Origin: Candidatus Saccharimonadota bacterium
GTDB taxonomy: Bacteria > Patescibacteriota > Saccharimonadia > Saccharimonadales > OFTM59
Assembly (NCBI GenBank): GCA_029260855.1
Contig: JAJDCK010000012.1
Span: 1-38,973, forward strand
Direction of reading: 5' to 3'
DNA: 38,973 nt
Shown one piece after another: positions 8,292 through 8,565 of the stretch. How positions within the stretch are numbered: the stretch's first letter is position 1; the number at the start of each line of letters is the position of its first letter. Made by a program: the position numbers and the translations under genes. The notes beneath the pieces were generated by a model that worked only from the letters and a program-made list of their open reading frames with translations, did no database searches and was not told where the DNA came from.

Positions 8292-8381
8292 GGAGAGGTG
8301 GCCGAGTGGTTGAAGGCGCTGCTCTCGAAAAGCAGTATGGGGGCAACCTCATCGAGGGTTCGAATCCCTCCCTCTCCGCCA
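8292..8381 (+). tRNA. tRNA-Ser (anticodon CGA)
   Basis: Acceptor GGAGAGG/CCTCTCC, anticodon stem CTGCT/AGCAG with loop CTCGAAA, long variable arm, T loop TTCGAAT, discriminator G8378 and encoded CCA (8379-8381). Reads UCG. Its last 21 bases are repeated exactly at 8545-8565. Confidence 0.95.
8361..8381 (+). repeat. 21-bp direct repeat, left copy (tRNA 3' end)
   Basis: Second half of the T arm, the acceptor strand and CCA of tRNA-Ser(CGA). Identical over 21 bp to 8545-8565. Flanking bases differ on both sides, so the repeat is exactly bounded, as for an attachment site inside a tRNA gene. Confidence 0.85.
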
Positions 8382-8544
8382 TTCTCCGTCGCTCCGGACT
8401 TTTCGGAGCTATGGAGAATGCTGAAGTGGGGATTCGAACGGGATTGCCTTGAATGGCAATCCCCGAACCTTCAGCCTGAAACATGCCTGATGGCATGCTT
8501 CAGGTTATTGCTAGCAAAAGTAATTTTCTTTTGCGGAAATAAGG
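8382..8544. mobile_element. 163-bp hairpin-rich insert at the tRNA-Ser 3' end
   Basis: Non-coding DNA between the two 21-bp repeats. It consists of four hairpins in tandem with almost no spacer: 8381-8419 (ATTCTCC/GGAGAAT enclosing GCTCCG/CGGAGC), 8420-8475 (GCTGAAG/CTTCAGC enclosing GGGATTGCC/GGCAATCCC), 8475-8504 (CCTGAA/TTCAGG plus an inner 6-bp stem), and 8514-8534 (GCAAAAG/CTTTTGC). Read on the minus strand, the second resembles a minimal tRNA acceptor plus T loop. It is best explained as a non-autonomous or decayed integrative element using the tRNA as target; a structured RNA processed from the tRNA transcript is the alternative. The rest of 8241-8615 holds only the tRNA and the next promoter. 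Confidence 0.5.
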
Positions 8545-8565
8545 CGAATCCCTCCCTCTCCGCCA
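8545..8565 (+). repeat. 21-bp direct repeat, right copy
   Basis: Exact copy of the tRNA-Ser(CGA) 3' end without the rest of the tRNA. The other two serine tRNAs of the window differ from it at one position each, so the copy derives from, or matches, the CGA gene specifically. Confidence 0.85.

Follow-up and report, generated by a model that had tools for sequence, protein, structure and literature searches.

A family of folded, gene-less DNA cassettes behind tRNA genes of Saccharimonadales is most likely mobile

What can lie in 163 bp between the end of an intact tRNA gene and an exact copy of that end? The window analysed here, a stretch of 38,973 nucleotides from a Candidatus Saccharimonadota bacterium (order Saccharimonadales; contig JAJDCK010000012.1, positions 1 to 38,973), contains such an arrangement behind a tRNA-Ser(CGA) gene. 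A preliminary description made from the sequence had proposed three readings: a non-autonomous mini-element mobilised in trans, the scar of an excised island, or a structured RNA linked to the tRNA. Here we delimit the insert, describe the family to which it belongs, and weigh these and other explanations.

The insert behind tRNA-Ser(CGA)

The recurrence of the last 21 bp of the tRNA gene was confirmed: CGAATCCCTCCCTCTCCGCCA is found at 8361-8381 and at 8545-8565 with 100% identity, start-to-start 184 bp, and the 163 bp between the two copies are without genes. An exact 21-mer repeat at so short a distance is not expected by chance. The repeat had been described as the end of the tRNA, which holds and can now be refined to exactly tRNA nucleotides 56-76, a segment that recurs across the family. 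Tandem duplication of the tRNA is rejected for the window, where AAGG, rather than tRNA sequence, precedes the distal repeat; it is true for one genome only (G022). The segment 8382-8565 folds at -85.8 kcal/mol on the plus strand and -85.7 kcal/mol on the minus strand, with shuffle means of about -52 (z = -7.9 and -8.1, respectively; no shuffle out of 200 matched these values). On the strand antisense to the tRNA, the core by itself (8429-8552) has z = -7.5 when folded as single-stranded DNA and -7.4 when folded as RNA. Four hairpins packed end to end had been proposed; hairpins are indeed present, with z of about -8 on both strands, but their layout is that of one palindrome followed by a three-hairpin core within a long-range stem. 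This closing stem (GGGATTCG/CGAATCCC) pairs 8429-8436 with 8545-8552, and the distal repeat therefore belongs in part to the fold. The features are as follows.

8292..8381, plus strand: host tRNA-Ser(CGA) gene, intact, with CCA encoded (ARAGORN; Rfam tRNA, 62.4 bits)
8361..8381, plus strand: proximal D, tRNA nucleotides 56-76 (T-loop C56 to the CCA end), within the tRNA
8382..8565, no strand assigned: inserted unit of T1 palindrome, inverted T-arm, folded core and distal D (repeat and folding; all absent from empty tRNA loci of relatives)
8382..8418, no strand assigned: T1, the tRNA-proximal palindrome, 37 nt (folding; comparison with other copies)
8429..8436, no strand assigned: P0 inner arm GGGATTCG, the inverted T-arm, fitted to the host tRNA and paired with the distal D
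8430..8553, minus strand: core matched by covariance model R1 with 121.7 bits, the window being one of the seven sequences used to build R1
8440..8463, minus strand: P3 hairpin, arms 8440-8448 and 8455-8463 (folding; covariation in 7 of 8 pairs)
8464..8474, minus strand: linker between P3 and S2, conserved on the minus strand as CAAGGGTGCC/AAGGTTCG-type sequence (alignments)
8475..8504, minus strand: S2 hairpin, arms 8475-8487 and 8492-8504 (folding; covariation in 11 of 11 pairs)
8505..8542, minus strand: S1 hairpin, with outer helix 8505-8509/8538-8542 and inner helix 8514-8520/8528-8534 (GCAAAAG-N7-CTTTTGC) (folding; covariation in 4 of 5 and 7 of 7 pairs)
8545..8565, plus strand: distal D; the second arm of P0 is made up of its first 8 nt (8545-8552)

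The S2 hairpin varies in sequence with its pairing preserved and is missing from short-form members of the family. T1 has no clear T run in the window; in many other copies, T1 takes the form of a bidirectional terminator-like hairpin with an A/T-rich base. We also observed that T1 is flanked in the window (8361-8439) by the T-arm of the tRNA and its inverted copy, such that the tRNA 3′ end, T1, and the inverted arm form one long imperfect palindrome (8361-8439 matches itself in reverse complement). In another locus (L043), the inverted arm is a complete 21-nt copy of the tRNA end.

A family fitted to its host tRNAs

Searching for the unit in relatives, as the preliminary description had proposed, revealed a family. 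In a DNA search across 100 relatives, homologous cores turned up in many genomes and repeatedly in some; the covariance model built from seven copies, run on 393 genomes of the order, identified about 88 places in 37 genomes and 31 of 156 genera, with up to nine copies per genome; the source genome has two. Outside the order, a second covariance model run over 380 genomes of the phylum found three carriers, one with 8 matches, and most of these matches follow a tRNA gene (Arg, Met, Ser, Gly, Leu, Gln, and others) at a distance of about 50 nt. The genomes surveyed are mostly draft MAGs, and the named assemblies matched by a pattern scan were Patescibacteria/Saccharibacteria MAGs or bacterial MAGs. 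In IMG/VR, both pattern matches were due to chance, inside a recA-like gene, and blastn against phage and plasmid collections gave no match. Rfam recovered only tRNAs at the gathering threshold, and weak or spurious matches in a lax search. No description of the cassette family was found in the open-access literature searched (subscription journals and preprints being outside this scope), and such a gene-less family in CPR bacteria is apparently undescribed so far.

Most members lie about 50 nt behind a tRNA, in a single orientation and at many isoacceptors. Read in the sense of the tRNA, the order is the tRNA with its CCA, T1, the inverted T-arm (GGGATTCG-like), P3, the linker, S2, S1, AAGG or AGGT, and D (nucleotides 56-76). 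From tRNA end to core there are 43-59 nt, with constant orientation, in the 55 copies beside a tRNA, a set selected for that orientation and for a distance below 70 nt; most of those omitted lie at the ends of contigs, next to islands, or within arrays. A short form (L131, L138, L142, L144, L146, L147, and L153) is without S1 and S2 and has a single hairpin with a conserved loop of approximately YCGATNAATCTC.

The distal D is identical to the tRNA end at 21 of 21 positions in 27 of these 55 copies. Many distal repeats are shorter than 21 bp, mismatches being concentrated towards the CCA, on the outer side; the 11 innermost nt, closing stem included, are almost always retained, and extension of the repeat by more than 2 nt beyond CCA is rare. 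Compared with its own tRNA, the distal D matches at 991 of 1155 positions (maximum of 5000 permutations, 823) and the inner arm at 403 of 440 (permutation maximum, 378). As both values exceed all permutations, the closing stem fits its host tRNA: it is CTTG/CAAG at Leu, CTCG/CGAG at Lys and Val, and ATTCG/CGAAT at Ser and Gln. Outside the 8-nt stem, the inner arm resembles the end of the host tRNA only weakly (score 247, expected 226; highest shuffle, 249). A hairpin with dG of -12 or lower occurs within the first 46 nt at 96% of filled tRNA loci vs 45% of empty ones.

Other structured inserts were seen behind tRNA genes. A second cassette type, with a different core (containing GTCACATYCTGCGACCCCG on the antisense strand), lies behind tRNA-Ser in L156 and L060 (G008), L053 (G063), L033 (G099), and L157 (G004); it has the same layout of T1 palindrome and inverted T-arm, and an exact 21-bp repeat 177-178 bp away in L053 and L156. 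Further structured inserts of about 150 bp are found in L213 (G127), L034 (G023), L209 (G182), L025 (G095), and L026 (G047), some with an 18-bp repeat (tRNA nucleotides 59-76) and not 21; in the L209 array, such an insert comes after the main cassette type.

Fold, spread, and competing explanations

The five helices covary massively. Among 69 copies, double changes occur in 33 of 38 pairs (520 double-change cells vs 131 shuffled), and pairing falls from 94% to 41-53% when the partner is slid by one column. Stems that drift without covarying, which the preliminary description had held would speak against it, were thus not what we found. RNA helices usually evolve through G-U pairs. The element stems, in an alignment fitted to the structure, show 44 wobble and 24 A.C cells among 2252 (2.0% and 1.1%), whereas the acceptor and T stems of the tRNAs at the same loci show 93 wobble and no A.C (5.1% and 0%). 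The near symmetry between wobble and A.C suggests a constraint on both strands or on single-stranded DNA, with a slight lean towards the antisense strand. In addition, the cores of L155 and L209 lie between two terminator-like hairpins with, judged by eye, no evident room for a promoter. Because of these two observations, the view that the fold acts as DNA, as a cruciform or an extruded strand, is supported, though not proved.

These data also bear on an unlikely alternative, the likeliest of those considered: that the insert is a conserved gene for a non-coding RNA, which converges on the tRNA gene and uses the same terminator. The 5′ end of this RNA, being antisense to the 3′ end of the tRNA, might bind the tRNA or regulate it. 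Such a gene would fit the strong covariation, the fixed orientation antisense to the tRNA, the common T1 hairpin with its A/T-rich base in many copies, and the slight antisense-strand excess of wobble over A.C. However, the low wobble share beside that of the tRNA stems and the several copies placed directly between two terminator-like hairpins disfavour it, and with it the structured RNA of the preliminary description; patchy occupancy that varies within a genus, the arrays, and the absence of an Rfam family also stand against it.

The occupancy of tRNA loci is patchy and spread over many tRNAs, and not that of an immobile unit held by all relatives at one place. Seven genomes of a single genus (g74) hold 0, 0, 1, 1, 2, 3, and 6 copies. 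In this genus, a cassette lies behind tRNA-Ser(GGA) in G147 and G182, the two cores being different, and none of this kind is found there in G085, G104, and G135; tRNA-Leu(CAA) is occupied in G147 and G225, has a truncated copy in G135, and is empty in G085, G104, and G127. The comparison for empty sites that the preliminary description had called for has therefore yielded orthologous tRNA loci without the cassette. These empty loci have no clean T1 palindrome and no inverted arm, and T1 therefore arrives with the cassette. In G021, a cassette lies between tRNA-Ser(TGA) and the end of an island, and in G071 a sequence 88% identical to this island end over 399 nt directly abuts an identical 21-bp tRNA-Ser(CGA) end. 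Together, the two loci come near to a natural empty site, even if their tRNAs are different isoacceptors. Across the family, the most similar core lies within the same genome for 20 of 69 cores (mean of shuffles 2.2, highest 10) and behind the same tRNA for only 5 of 69 (mean of shuffles 2.8). Two loci of G079 have a common core and T1, with D fitted to each. Tandem units are present in L049, L133, and L055, and two cassette types are stacked behind one tRNA in L209. Given the dispersed copies, the D that matches each copy's own tRNA, clustering by genome and not by tRNA, 0-6 copies within a genus, empty sites, and arrays, the family to which 8382-8565 belongs is most likely a non-autonomous mobile cassette. 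The mini-element of the preliminary description thus gains support from dispersed copies, variable occupancy within a genus, empty sites, and spread over different tRNAs within a genome.

Separately, at what appears to be the same tRNA-Leu(TAA) locus, two species of one genus have a short form (L146 in G086) and a long form (L104 in G072), a difference that suggests independent insertions or replacement.

The Lys and Arg copies of G001 have near-identical cores and different T1 palindromes, and gene conversion between loci may contribute to some exchanges such as this one. Taken further, the family could be an old tRNA-end repeat that never transposed and was swapped by homologous recombination or gene conversion through common tRNA ends, with loss in some lineages. 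Flanking direct repeats would allow such exchange, and the G001 pair, whose Arg copy has a mixed distal D, agrees with it. We nevertheless consider this slightly less probable even than the RNA gene: copies sit at tRNAs with dissimilar ends, the G079 copies share core and T1 while D is fitted to each locus, empty loci also have neither T1 nor the inverted arm, and presence is patchy (31 of 156 genera).

Candidate enzymes and known systems

Our preferred reading, with a probability of roughly 60%, is that 8382-8565 arose by insertion of a member of a family of non-autonomous mobile DNA cassettes that carry no gene and whose folded strand is recombined in trans. The cassette, of about 125-195 bp, consists of the T1 palindrome, the inverted T-arm, the folded core, and D. 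It lies exactly behind CCA in one orientation; the tRNA stays intact, and its nucleotides 56-76 are repeated on the far side. The closing stem P0 is T-arm sequence fitted to each host tRNA. Comparison reveals the spread between tRNA genes of a genome and the stacking into arrays, from which we infer the event itself. A recombinase supplied in trans, or the Xer-like one of the host, would recognise the folded strand and join it at the T-loop/CCA segment, D being either duplicated from the target or carried along and corrected. By analogy with IntI and folded attC sites, our best guess is an attC-like folded-strand reaction in trans. Against this reading stand the many distal repeats that fall short of 21 bp and the lack of any enzyme family, among those compared below, that tracks the cassettes; nor was a circular form or active transposition seen.

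Which enzyme could do so was addressed by comparing Pfam families between 32 carriers and 21 non-carriers, mostly draft genomes in which a rarer gene could be missed. One Xer-like tyrosine recombinase is present in nearly every genome, carrier or not, and would be the sole near-universal candidate; no second tyrosine recombinase tracks the family in this comparison. The REP-associated Y1 transposase does not track it either: it is present in 19 of the 32 carriers (drafts) and was not detected in the draft genomes G038, G027, G077, G194, and G245, several of which are multi-copy. In the source genome, which has five Y1 matches, a Y1 gene (L061:1343-1975, minus strand) does lie some 5 kb away from the second cassette. 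Large serine recombinases are about equally common in carriers and non-carriers, and reverse transcriptases occur in 5 of 32 carriers; neither enzyme tracks the cassettes. The ORFs between neighbouring copies include, by eye, no integrase, recombinase, or transposase, and no autonomous partner with matching ends was found near the copies examined.

Islands with serine recombinases occupy the same landing sites, on either side of cassettes but separate from them. An island of about 7 kb with a serine recombinase gene separates the second cassette of the source genome from tRNA-Lys(CTT), behind which the cassette of G001 lies directly. Only about 6 bp are common to the junctions of this island, which therefore leaves the 21-bp repeats unexplained. 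Large serine recombinase genes were also seen to end within a tRNA, antisense, at its CCA end (L061:12295-13884 in tRNA-Lys(CTT), L061:13827-13903; likewise L062:7678-9339 at tRNA-Arg(TCG)), and by these positions such islands appear to use tRNA ends. According to the Islander paper, tRNA genes are known targets of tyrosine integrases alone (PMC4383910).

It is improbable that the cassettes are scars or attachment sites of excised serine-recombinase islands. Islands at the same places, on both sides of cassettes, speak for this idea; against it, their junctions share about 6 bp and not 21, the core is conserved as a fold across many tRNA types, and serine recombinases are equally common in cassette-free genomes. 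The island scar of the preliminary description is likewise unsupported, the core fold being conserved in about 88 copies. Least probable of all is a retroelement-like origin, in which an RNA with a tRNA-like 3′ end (D and CCA) is reverse-transcribed and inserted at tRNA genes, as the reverse transcription of fungal mitochondrial retroplasmids starts at tRNA-like ends with CCA: the end of D coincides exactly with CCA, and distal repeats that are short are truncated on the CCA side, but reverse transcriptase genes occur in so few of the carriers tested and the wobble balance speaks against a selected RNA fold.

Returning to the mobile cassette, its closest counterparts among known systems each share only part of its features. 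Like Islander-type islands, it lands in a tRNA gene that stays functional, has a displaced 3′ tRNA fragment as its far end, in the same orientation as the intact tRNA that bounds it on the other side, and can form tandem arrays. Unlike them, it measures about 165 bp instead of at least kilobases, has no integrase or other gene, uses many tRNA types per family, and has a conserved folded core with a closing stem matched to the host tRNA. Candidates below 2 kb and those lacking an integrase are rejected by Islander (PMC4383910), a possible reason why such units were overlooked. With integron cassettes and attC sites, including integrase-less arrays, it shares a conserved fold without conserved sequence and ordered arrays beside a fixed site; however, judged from tyrosine recombinase counts, no IntI-type integrase correlates with it, there is no cassette gene, the target is a tRNA end and not attI, and a multi-branch fold without the attC layout and its R and L boxes, flanked by 21-bp repeats, replaces the single imperfect hairpin. 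MITEs and REP/BIME elements (Y1/RAYT) are similarly small, palindromic, gene-less, multi-copy, and presumably mobilised in trans, and dispersed homologous copies with empty orthologous sites, as expected of a MITE, were found here; the strict tRNA 3′-end target, the repetition of fixed tRNA coordinates 56-76, and the multi-branch core are different, and REP/BIME elements are moved by Y1 (RAYT), not detected in several multi-copy cassette genomes. Insertion by large serine recombinases involves a short junction core and a recombinase inside, in contrast to the 21-bp repeats and absence of genes in the cassette. The cassette thus resembles an integrase-less integrative island combined with an attC-type fold, yet lacks defining features of each, and there is a real chance that its mechanism is categorically new. 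It is possible, though we hold this only tentatively, that it represents a new class of selfish DNA, a gene-less cassette moving as a folded strand that would copy the end of any host tRNA, remake its own closing stem, and build integron-like arrays across Patescibacteria with a chromosomal recombinase such as the single Xer-like one.

From a biological perspective, tRNA genes are classic landing sites of mobile DNA, and the guests described so far are kilobases long and carry an integrase (PMC4383910). Gene-less guests of about 165 bp at many tRNA ends of genomes of about 1 Mb show how small tRNA-targeting elements can be. They also raise the questions of which enzyme moves a folded DNA cassette and how its closing stem comes to be matched to a new host tRNA.
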